A stretch of 64,000 nucleotides of DNA from Vibrio sp. FE10 (lineage in GTDB: Bacteria; Pseudomonadota; Gammaproteobacteria; Enterobacterales; Vibrionaceae): NCBI RefSeq assembly GCF_030297155.1, contig NZ_AP028068.1:868001-932000 (forward strand), given 5' to 3'. The position numbers and the translations under genes were made by a program. Positions 11,847-19,164 of this stretch are shown in pieces. The notes beneath the pieces are model-generated. The model saw only the letters and a program-made list of their open reading frames with translations, was not told where the DNA came from and made no database searches. Position 1 is the stretch's first letter, and each line of letters starts with the position of its first letter.

Positions 11847-11862
11847 ATGTTACTTGTAACAT
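11847..11862 (+). promoter_or_regulatory. GntR-type operator upstream of gntR
   Basis: ATGTTACTTGTAACAT is a perfect 16-bp palindrome, and its arms match the known GntR operator form (ATGTTAC-GTAACAT). It ends 20 bases before the gntR start, suggesting autorepression. Matching arms recur in the double operator at 15369-15395. Confidence 0.82.
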
Positions 11863-11882
11863 AATAAAGAGTTCAAATAGTT

Positions 11883-12890
11883 ATGACAGAACAACAGAAG
11901 AAAACTCGAACCACACTTCAAGATGTTGCAGATAAAGTGGGGGTCACAAAGATGACCGTCTCTCGTTATATGCGCAACCCTGATTCGGTAGCGGCCAAAA
12001 CTCGCGTGAAAATTGCTGCGGTTATTGAAGAGATGGGATACATCGAAAACAAAGCGCCCGCTATGCTATCCAAGTCGTCGAGTAAGGCGATCGGGATCTT
12101 ACTCCCGTCACTATCAAACCAAATATTTGCCGCGTTTGTTCAAGGTATCGAAACGGTGACCAAAGAGAACGGCTACGAGACGTTGCTTGCTCACTTTAGC
12201 TATGATGCTGTGGAAGAAGAGGAAAAAATTGCTTCGTTGCTTTCGTATCACGTTGATGGGTTGATATTGACGGAAAGCCACCACACCCCCCGCACGTTAC
12301 AGATGATCAAGAATTCAGGTGTTTCTGTTGTTGAAACGATGGAACTGCCGACGAACCCGATCGATATGGTTGTTGGCTTGGACCATATTGATGCTTCTTA
12401 CCATGTCGTGAAGCGCATGATTGAAGCCGGTAAACGTTCTATTGCTTACTTTGGCGCTCGATTGGATGCGCGAACTAAGCTGCGTTTGCAAGGCTATGAT
12501 AAAGCGATGCACGAGGCCGGACTTGAACCTAAGCATGTATTGACCGAACAACACTCAAACTTCTCTTTGGCAGAAGATCTGCTTGATCGTGCTCTTGCGG
12601 ATTACCCAGATCTTGATGGCGTGTTCTGTACCAATGATGACATTGCAATAGGTACCTTGCTAATTGCACAGCAACGTGGAATCGAAGTACCTAAACAACT
12701 TGCAGTCGTCGGTTATAACGCTTTGGATATTGGCCAAACCATACGCCCAAAACTGACCAGTGTAGATACTCCACGTTATGAGATGGGGAAGAAAAGTGCC
12801 GAGCTACTGCTTGCTCGCTTGAAAGGTGAACCAGTCACGGAAACGATAGTGGATATGGGCTATCGCATCACTGATGGCGAAAGTGTTTAG
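11883..12890 (+). CDS. gntR: LacI-family gluconate utilisation repressor
   Basis: The 335-residue protein has an N-terminal LacI helix-turn-helix (residues 10-35; TLQDVADKVGVTKMTVSRYMRNP) and a periplasmic-binding-like effector domain. The family's dimer and effector core blocks (GIETVTKENGYETLLA, GVFCTNDDIAIGTLL) are present. GntR binds ATGTTAC-type palindromes and is released by gluconate. One such site lies just upstream, and two overlapping ones control the gntK-edd and PTS units 3 kb away. The gene is convergent with edd. Assignment as GntR rests on sequence feel plus the operator match. Confidence 0.85.
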   Translation: MTEQQKKTRTTLQDVADKVGVTKMTVSRYMRNPDSVAAKTRVKIAAVIEEMGYIENKAPAMLSKSSSKAIGILLPSLSNQIFAAFVQGIETVTKENGYETLLAHFSYDAVEEEEKIASLLSYHVDGLILTESHHTPRTLQMIKNSGVSVVETMELPTNPIDMVVGLDHIDASYHVVKRMIEAGKRSIAYFGARLDARTKLRLQGYDKAMHEAGLEPKHVLTEQHSNFSLAEDLLDRALADYPDLDGVFCTNDDIAIGTLLIAQQRGIEVPKQLAVVGYNALDIGQTIRPKLTSVDTPRYEMGKKSAELLLARLKGEPVTETIVDMGYRITDGESV

Positions 12891-12961
12891 CCAAGTATGG
12901 TGGAAACTGAAAGGGGCATCGAAATAATGCCCCTTTGCTTTTACATTTAAGCGATAACACA

Positions 12962-12991
12962 GTTAGACGATAAAACGTTAGACGATAAAAC
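12962..12991. repeat. 15-bp perfect tandem duplication across the edd stop codon
   Basis: GTTAGACGATAAAAC occurs twice head to tail (12962-12976 and 12977-12991). The inner copy encodes the last residues and TAA of edd. The outer copy repeats the same codons in frame, giving a second TAA 15 bases later. Confidence 0.9.
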
Positions 12992-17034: not shown

Positions 17035-17065
17035 AGTCACCTCACTTCATCGTAAGGTGACTTTT
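17035..17065 (+). terminator. Hairpin between the PTS and GH1 genes (partial terminator or processing site)
   Basis: AGTCACCT (17035-17042) pairs with AGGTGACT (17055-17062) and is followed by TTTT. The 12-base loop and short T run suggest attenuation or mRNA processing inside the operon and not full termination. Confidence 0.45.
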
Positions 17066-17084
17066 ATTGTTTCCGAGGTGTTCG

Positions 17085-18515
17085 ATGTCAAACATTCAAT
17101 TTCCCGAAGATTTCTTATGGGGTGGCGCTATTGCTGCAAACCAGTCTGAAGGCGCTCACTTAGCAGGTGGTAAAGGCCTAACAACCGTAGATATGATCCC
17201 TTACGGTGAGAACCGCATGCCAATTAAGCTTGGTCAGGTCGATAAGGTGACGCTCAGCGAAGACGAGTTCTACCCAAGCCATAACGCGATAGACTTTTAT
17301 CACCGTTACAAAGAAGACATCGCCTTACTGGCAGAGATGGGATTTAAAGTGTTCCGCGTATCCATCGCATGGAGCCGAATCTTTCCAAAAGGTGATGAGC
17401 TAGAGCCGAACCAAGCCGGTTTAGATTTTTACCGTGATGTTTTTGAAGAGTGTAAGAAATACGGTATTGAGCCACTAGTTACCTTGTGCCATTTCGATGT
17501 GCCAATGCACTTGGTGAATGAGTATGGTTCGTGGCGCAATCGTAAGATGATTGAATTCTTTAGCCGTTACGCAAGAACCTGTTTCGAGAACTACAAAGGT
17601 TTGGTGAAGTATTGGCTAACCTTTAATGAGATTAATATCTTACTGGCAAGCCCGTTTTCTGGTGCTGGATTGTTGTTCCAAGAAGGCGAAAATCACGATC
17701 AAGTGAAATACCAAGCTGCTCACCATGAGCTCGTAGCAAGCGCTTTAGTAACCAAGATTGCCCATGAAGTGGACGAGCAAAACCAAGTGGGCTGTATGCT
17801 GGCGGGTGGCAACTTCTATCCATATTCATGTAAGCCAGAAGATGTGCTTATGGCGATGGAAAAAGATCGTGAGAACTTGTTCTTTATTGATGTTCAATCG
17901 CGTGGTTACTACCCATCTTATGCTCAAAAAGTGTTTGATAACAAAGGTGTGGTGCTTGAAACACAAGAAGAAGATTTCGAAATTCTCAAGAATACCGTCG
18001 ATTTCATATCGTTCAGTTATTACGCTTCACGCTGTGCTTCTGCCGACATGAATTCGGGTAACACCAGCGCGGCGAACGTTGTTAAGTCAATCAAAAACCC
18101 TCACCTGCCAGCAAGTGATTGGGGGTGGGTGATAGACCCTACCGGCCTTCGTATTACGATGAATACTCTATACGATCGTTACCAGAAACCGCTTTTCTTG
18201 GTTGAGAACGGCTTAGGCGCTCGTGACACCTTAGATGACAAGGGGGAAGTGAACGATGACTACCGTATCGATTATCTCCGTCAGCACATTGTTGCGATGC
18301 ATGAAGCGATGGAAGACGGTGTTCCACTTATGGGCTACACACCTTGGGGTTGTATTGATTTGGTCGCAGCGTCGACTGGCGAAATGAGTAAGCGCTACGG
18401 CTTTATTTATGTGGATAGAGACAACCTAGGCAATGGTACGTTAAATCGTATTCCTAAAAAGTCGTTCCATTGGTATAAAAAAGTGATCGCAAGTAACGGC
18501 AGCGACTTGGCTTAA
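17085..18515 (+). CDS. GH1 6-phospho-beta-glucosidase-like enzyme
   Basis: The ATG at 17085 follows GAGGTGTTCG; the protein has 476 residues. It is a glycoside hydrolase family 1 TIM barrel with [15 protein letters not shown] at 10-24. The acid/base glutamate is E182 (TFNEIN) and the nucleophile is E374 (LVENG). The C-terminal [15 protein letters not shown] block keeps the Lys and Tyr (K436, Y438) of phospho-sugar-binding members. Ala428 replaces the Ser common in this family (VSxxTG). It should cleave the phosphorylated product of the adjacent PTS in the cytoplasm. It lies between the EIIBC and eda genes, apparently in one operon, and is a relative of the GH1 enzyme at 36.8 kb. Confidence 0.9.
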
Positions 18516-18546
18516 CTTATCTGTTTGATAATGAGAGAAATGAATA

Positions 18547-19164
18547 ATGAAAACAATTGAAGAGCGACTCAGAGATATTCGTATTGTTCCGGTGATCGCC
18601 ATTAATGACGTTGCTCATGCTGTACCACTTGCGAAAGTGTTGGTTGAAAATGGTTTACCTTGCGCAGAAATCACGTTTCGAACAGAAGCGGCAGCAGAGT
18701 CTATTCGTTTGATGCGTGAAGCATACCCTGAGCTATTGATTGGCGCTGGTACGGTACTAACGACAGAGCTGGTGGATGTTGCGATTGGCGCGGGTGTTGA
18801 TTTTATTGTGAGCCCTGGCTTAAATCCAACAACAGTAAAGTACTGTCAGCAGCGTGGCGTTGCGATTGTTCCGGGTGTCAACAATCCAAGCCTCGTCGAG
18901 CAAGCAATGGAAATGGGCCTTAAAACACTTAAGTTCTTTCCTGCAGAGCCATCTGGTGGTGTTGCCATGTTGAAAGCGTTGACGGCAGTTTATCCAGTTA
19001 ACTTTATGCCGACAGGTGGTGTGAGCCCCGCGAACGTAGAGTCTTACTTAGTGCTAAAATCAGTCGTTGCTTGTGGTGGCACTTGGATGGTGCCTACCGA
19101 CAAAATGGATAATGGTGATTGGGAAGGAATTGCTGAATTAGTTAGAGCTATCGGTTCGAGATAG
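18547..19164 (+). CDS. eda: KDPG/KHG aldolase
   Basis: The 205-residue protein is a class I aldolase. It splits 2-keto-3-deoxy-6-phosphogluconate into pyruvate and glyceraldehyde-3-phosphate, the last Entner-Doudoroff step. The Schiff-base lysine is K129 (LKFFPAE), with E41 and R45 in CAEITFR and the phosphate loop in MPTGGV. It lies 31 bases after the GH1 gene, is last in the operon and is followed by a terminator. Together with divergent gntK-edd it completes gluconate breakdown. It stops with TAG. Confidence 0.94.
   Translation: MKTIEERLRDIRIVPVIAINDVAHAVPLAKVLVENGLPCAEITFRTEAAAESIRLMREAYPELLIGAGTVLTTELVDVAIGAGVDFIVSPGLNPTTVKYCQQRGVAIVPGVNNPSLVEQAMEMGLKTLKFFPAEPSGGVAMLKALTAVYPVNFMPTGGVSPANVESYLVLKSVVACGGTWMVPTDKMDNGDWEGIAELVRAIGSR

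Follow-up and report, generated by a model that had tools for sequence, protein, structure and literature searches.

Gene content and layout of the cluster

The stretch of DNA analysed here (the window, 64,000 nucleotides of contig NZ_AP028068.1 of Vibrio sp. FE10) contains a six-gene cluster in which the genes of a gluconate (Entner-Doudoroff) pathway stand together with the EIIBC component of a phosphotransferase system (PTS) and a 6-phospho-beta-glucosidase of glycoside hydrolase family 1 (GH1). The layout is gntR / edd-gntK // EIIBC-GH1-eda, with both arms diverging from one common promoter region. A reading of the sequence alone (the sequence-only reading) had placed these genes around a double GntR operator in the shared promoter. 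The open reading frames of all six genes, intact and at the expected positions, and their family scores bear out the gene content, and consensus matching supports the predicted operator as two abutting boxes. The positions below are those of the window.

11848..11861, no strand assigned: GntR-type operator TGTTACTTGTAACA 5' of gntR; 2 mismatches to TGTTACCGGTAACA, both half-sites perfect
11883..12890, + strand: gntR, LacI-family gluconate-type repressor (GntR/IdnR-like); NCBIfam IdnR 392 bits, GntR 385 bits
12978..14774, - strand: edd, 6-phosphogluconate dehydratase; TIGR01196 822 bits, cut-off 708
14771..15292, - strand: gntK, gluconokinase; TIGR01313 217 bits, cut-off 114
15369-15382 and 15383-15396, no strand assigned: two abutting 14-bp GntR boxes between gntK and EIIBC, in their common promoter region; each 1 mismatch from TGTTACCGGTAACA
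15535..17013, + strand: ascF-like PTS EIIBC; PRK09796 851 bits, cut-off 722
17085..18515, + strand: ascB-like GH1 6-phospho-beta-glucosidase; PRK09852 970 bits, cut-off 623
18547..19164, + strand: eda, 2-keto-3-deoxy-6-phosphogluconate aldolase; TIGR01182 266 bits, cut-off 156

The gntK gene is the sole match to TIGR01313 in the genome at E <= 0.001. The regulator scores below the curated cut-offs of both NCBIfam models (500 for IdnR; 433 for GntR, PRK14987), and a Vibrio cluster with gntP (L129) has a GntR with similar scores (IdnR 411, GntR 382 bits). The PRK14987 scores of two other gntP-bearing clusters are 378 (L126, also below 433) and 463 (L117, above it). The window's gntR product is 29% identical to AscG.

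The pattern TGTTACCGGTAACA, which we take to be the GntR operator consensus, is matched with at most one mismatch only at the two boxes of the shared promoter in the whole 6.0-Mb genome. The starts of these boxes are 14 bp apart, compared with about 13 bp for the overlapping GntR sites of gntKU (PMC4052901). With up to two mismatches the genome contains 29 sites versus 28 for the reversed pattern; because single boxes with two mismatches thus occur at chance level, we relied on tandem pairs instead. The box in front of gntR recurs at the equivalent place in relatives, for example in L101-L104 and L129.

A PTS and a GH1 in the place of the gluconate permease

In Vibrio parahaemolyticus, strains of which were observed to grow on gluconate, gntK-edd is divergent from gntT-eda (PMC6537148). 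Seven Vibrio clusters that we fetched (L128-L130, L133-L136) have the arrangement gntR/edd-gntK//gntP-eda with tandem boxes 14 bp apart. The window shares gntR, edd, gntK and eda with this canonical gluconate cluster, and the tandem boxes lie at the same divergent promoter; however, instead of a GntT/GntP permease the window has the EIIBC and the GH1, which occupy the position of gntP in the seven clusters. Compared with a GntI-type gluconate regulon, gntK, edd, eda and the tandem GntR boxes are present, but the GntP-family permease is missing. The lack of such a permease, which the sequence-only reading had noticed in the cluster, extends to the rest of the genome, where no GntP-family protein passes the cut-off (best PF02447 match 19.7 bits versus 22.5). 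The same search gives matches in 7 of 14 control genomes.

We surveyed 196 genomes of the genus; 86 of them contain the 87 gntK loci considered here, all with an identity of 53% or more. A second type of gntK (about 41-51% identity) was excluded, GntP matches were accepted to E about 1e-49, and AscB matches at 80% identity or more. Among the matches listed, a GntP lies within 8 kb of gntK at 54 of the 87 loci, AscB at 18, both at 1 and neither at 14; the corresponding Fisher p of 4e-9 applies to these matches and is not corrected for relatedness. On the level of genomes, a strong GntP match is present in only 2 of the 19 with a gntK-linked AscB, in 9 of the 12 with an unlinked AscB, and in 93 of the 165 without AscB (2/19 versus 93/165: Fisher p 1e-4, among related genomes). 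In one of the two exceptions (G017) the GntP gene is located, by eye, amid genes for glycerate and four-carbon acids, and G184 is the only genome with a gntK-linked AscB that also has a GntP beside gnt genes.

Relationship to the asc system of Escherichia coli

The EIIBC shares 72% identity with AscF of E. coli and the GH1 78% with AscB; the E. coli proteins score 1025 and 1088 bits with the same models, and the order ascF-ascB is the same. The two loci differ in their regulatory surroundings. In E. coli, ascG adjoins the operon together with an AscG-type box, no gnt genes are found within 8 kb, and no GntR box within three mismatches is present in the 8 kb examined at ascF; in the window the adjoining regulator is GntR-like and the promoter carries GntR boxes, with no ascG and AscG box next to the pair. 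According to Pfam the window's EIIBC consists of EIIC and EIIB domains. No EIIA domain was found in it, and the protein must therefore, by its predicted domain content, borrow a separate EIIA.

In GH1 phospho-beta-glucosidases the glutamates of TFNEIN and VENG are the acid/base and the nucleophile, and the S..K.Y motif binds the phosphate. The translated GH1 carries all of these in alignment with solved phospho-beta-glucosidases. A comparison of 39 AscB-type sequences with 40 other Vibrio GH1 sequences, from which sequences with stops, short matches and duplicates had been removed, revealed 37 positions that distinguish the AscB clade, among them R44, K48, R151 and R316. These residues looked like candidate contacts for a carboxylate, but we do not use them as evidence, since Firmicutes homologues located beside an antiterminator-like gene also have R44 and R316.

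Genetic evidence on the substrate comes from E. coli, which no longer grows on cellobionic acid once ascB is deleted and regains this ability upon complementation; an assay of the AscB enzyme was not possible for the authors, who called the entry route of cellobionic acid unknown (PMC4403981). De-repression of asc is reported not to give E. coli efficient growth on cellobiose (PMC4488073), which fits a different natural substrate.

A second GH1 (36799-38238, BglA-like by eye) is encoded elsewhere in the window, next to a LacI-family regulator (38338-39336, by eye) and two AscG-like boxes, a perfect one at 36690 and one with a single mismatch at 36724. The region 36690-39336 is probably a separate system for ordinary beta-glucosides.

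GntR boxes at ascFB loci of the Vibrionaceae

We compared 31 AscB loci of the genus, one for each genome, with 40 loci of other GH1 genes chosen from the next-best matches in the same genus, searching for boxes within 450 bp upstream. Tandem GntR boxes are found at 22 of the 31 AscB loci and at none of the 40 controls, and any GntR box at 26/31 versus 1/40. The fetched stretch contains gntK at 19 AscB loci and at no control locus; edd is likewise absent from all 40 controls, and one control (L146) has an eda-like gene nearby. Counting all 44 AscB loci, which include duplicates (the V. barjaei locus is from the contig of G167, and the V. maritimus locus from that of G059), 31 have tandem boxes, 36 have any box, and 30 have gntK.

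Even AscB loci that are not linked to gntK can carry the boxes: four of these 12 have tandem boxes, three a single box, and five none in the tested stretch. The four with tandem boxes have neither gntK nor edd within the fetched ~20 kb, and all four genomes (G110, G158, G100, G112) possess a gntP-gntK-edd cluster with boxes elsewhere. In Photobacterium and Aliivibrio, eda-EIIBC-GH1 stands behind tandem boxes (2 mismatches each) in 7/7 fetched loci; the strain of L022 is an example of an Aliivibrio fischeri with the cluster. The best reading of these promoter and neighbourhood patterns is that ascFB belongs to the gluconate regulon in the Vibrionaceae.

Outside the genus we found at least 35 loci with at least 74% identity, and examined 19 of them together with one more at 61%. 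In 17 of these 20 an AscG homologue is located near ascFB, and the stretch contains no GntR box of up to two mismatches. L210 (Psychromonas, the same contig as L017) and L228 (the locus at 61%) have neither an AscG homologue nor such a GntR box. L226 belongs to a different family of the order; its genes are arranged as EIIBC-GH1-gntR, and its boxes start at 12218 and 12232, with two and three mismatches respectively. In the GH1 phylogeny the 18 AscG-linked sequences (the 17 and E. coli) form a single clade with support of 1.0; the Vibrionaceae and Psychromonas group is placed beside it (support 0.68), and L226 falls outside both groups with low support (0.23). Judged from the neighbouring genes, the enzyme pair is kept while the regulator varies by lineage. 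The L226 genes form an operon-like run behind the tandem GntR-like boxes (8015-12245).

A proposed pathway for a glucosyl-gluconate

The explanation we favor, with a probability of about 0.7, is that the cluster is a gluconate regulon in which AscF and AscB replace the gluconate permease and that it serves to import a beta-glucosyl-gluconate, most likely cellobionate. PTS import yields a 6-phospho-disaccharide, from which GH1 phospho-glucosidases as a family free glucose-6-phosphate and the aglycone. Since the genome has no recognised gluconate importer, the presence of gntK and GntR would make best sense if gluconate were this aglycone. AscF, with the general PTS proteins and the separate EIIA, would bring in the disaccharide acid and phosphorylate its glucose at C6; AscB would cleave the product to glucose-6-phosphate and free gluconate. 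The gluconate would free GntR from the tandem boxes, to which the repressor presumably binds, and so turn on both arms, and GntK, Edd and Eda would convert it to pyruvate and glyceraldehyde-3-phosphate. Cellobionate is favored because it is the one such substrate for which we saw genetic support on an orthologue, E. coli AscB (PMC4403981).

A similar logic is described for Neurospora crassa, in which cellobionate is cleaved inside the cell to glucose phosphate and gluconate, followed by gluconokinase (PMC4537572). The fungus uses the major facilitator superfamily transporter CBT-1 and a cellobionic acid phosphorylase that gives glucose-1-phosphate, whereas the window's route would use a PTS and a hydrolase and give glucose-6-phosphate.

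The sequence-only reading had likewise proposed a beta-glucosyl-gluconate entering through the PTS, and had given as an example cellobionate, a product of oxidative polysaccharide breakdown. The proposed import gains support from the orthology of AscB to the genetically studied E. coli enzyme, from the exchange with GntP, and from the GntR boxes on unlinked ascFB. An origin from such breakdown is, though weakly tested, not supported for this strain, which has three lytic polysaccharide monooxygenases (LPMOs), two with GbpA domains and one without, and one protein of the aldose-dehydrogenase family (PF07995). Our searches for LPMOs, PF07995 and glycoside hydrolase family 5 (GH5), the only cellulase family searched, gave no sign that the strain itself produces cellobionate from cellulose: two of the three LPMOs are of the GbpA type and no GH5 passes the cut-off in the genome.

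This missing GH5 also counts against the proposed pathway, as do several other observations. A strong GntP is lacking in 72 of the 165 genomes without AscB as well. No box lies within 450 bp at five of the 31 AscB loci of Vibrio; three of these have broken genes, and in two boxes are located slightly further away. We obtained no GH1 residue signature for gluconate, and the Firmicutes homologues that share R44 and R316 have, by eye, a BglG/LicT-like antiterminator among their neighbors, while neither gntK nor edd of the window has a match near them. Finally, activated asc is cited as permitting growth on cellobiose, salicin and arbutin (PMC4403981), and for this reason a specificity of AscF and AscB wider than cellobionate appears likely.

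One could assume that AscF and AscB take ordinary beta-glucosides such as cellobiose, arbutin and salicin, that control by GntR is an opportunistic response to plant or algal matter, and that gluconate enters through an unrecognised carrier. NCBIfam labels AscF as a cellobiose/arbutin/salicin PTS, in homologues of the Staphylococcus type the GH1 stands next to a longer EII and a gene resembling an antiterminator, and the genome holds 11 matches to the large subunit of one tripartite ATP-independent periplasmic (TRAP) transporter as candidate carriers. However, we consider this explanation rather improbable, as the window holds the separate GH1, which has a LacI regulator of its own together with AscG-like boxes (36690-39336), GntR boxes are kept at four ascFB loci without nearby gnt genes, 0/40 other GH1 loci are linked to gntK or edd, and E. 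coli with de-repressed asc reportedly grows inefficiently on cellobiose (PMC4488073). A chance neighborhood, in which a mobile beta-glucoside operon landed beside gnt genes without functional coupling, would agree with the variability of the region, which has no orthologous match, flanks included, in a second genome of the species. We regard it as very improbable: the linkage recurs in three genera and in several gene orders, the tandem boxes are held in common and occur on unlinked copies too, and GntP and AscB nearly exclude each other at gntK loci among the matches listed.

An alternative that differs from the favored explanation only in the linkage of the disaccharide is that the PTS and GH1 act on a different beta-glucoside that releases gluconate, such as gentiobionate, laminaribionate or a further aldobionate, with cellobionate as only a side substrate. 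All that the regulon evidence indicates is that gluconate would be the logical product, and the genome lacks a GH5 over the cut-off. Marine vibrios encounter cellulose less than they do laminarin and other glucans. The genetic evidence on the orthologue, however, concerns cellobionate (PMC4403981), and we consider the alternative unlikely, though worth keeping in mind.

Should the favored explanation extend beyond the Vibrionaceae, AscF and AscB would primarily form a PTS pathway for aldobionates of the cellobionate type, which the Vibrionaceae placed under the gluconate repressor, so that import of the disaccharide acid takes the place of gluconate uptake. In enteric bacteria the "cryptic" asc operon would then represent this pathway with a different regulator, and the missing cellobionate importer would be AscF. 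We advance this wider view tentatively, at slightly less than even odds. It provides the asc operon, long a puzzle, with a natural substrate that can be tested, and puts AscF forward as a candidate for the importer left open in PMC4403981. If true, a PTS would serve a disaccharide with a sugar-acid moiety, and marine bacteria might recycle oxidised sugars derived from LPMOs or sugar oxidases without needing to degrade cellulose themselves. The parts of the system are known, but AscFB as a member of the GntR regulon replacing GntP is not described in the literature we found, supplements excepted. The titles and opening abstracts of the best matches in our literature search mention neither a cellobionate PTS nor a GntR-controlled ascFB; regulon tables or the gluconate-locus figure of PMC2996990 may already list the grouping.

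Variants of the locus

The stretch 10900-20600 of the window, flanking genes included, has no orthologous match in G186, a draft and the second genome of the same species, which gives only short matches of 69-76%; the region seems to be variable within the species. In V. hangzhouensis (L019, 5193-9913) a TRAP carrier (by eye), a gntK of the second type, gntR, and GntR-like boxes at 5193 and 5217 are located beside AscB, which makes a gluconate TRAP system possible. Among genomes with linked AscB the comparison of this carrier covered G000, G152 and G140, which have relatives of only 40-41%. The window's genome has no close copy of the carrier linked to the second gntK (best match 40%), whereas G186 has one of 93%.

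In genomes of the V. mediterranei type the EIIBC is absent; gntR is accompanied there by an EIIC of the lactose/cellobiose family and by a second GH1, and the promoter at this place carries GntR-like boxes. In L014 (2454-11416), where the EIIC was assigned by NCBIfam and EIIA and EIIB by eye, AscB is retained without AscF, and the boxes lie at 3176 (2 mismatches), 3309 (3) and 3321 (1); this PTS and GH1 possibly serve another disaccharide acid. AscB and/or AscF look broken, with split or stop-bearing frames, in L018, L025, L041, L051, L122 and L123 (V. aestivus, V. methylphosphonaticus and V. maritimus), which suggests that the pathway was lost in these three species.

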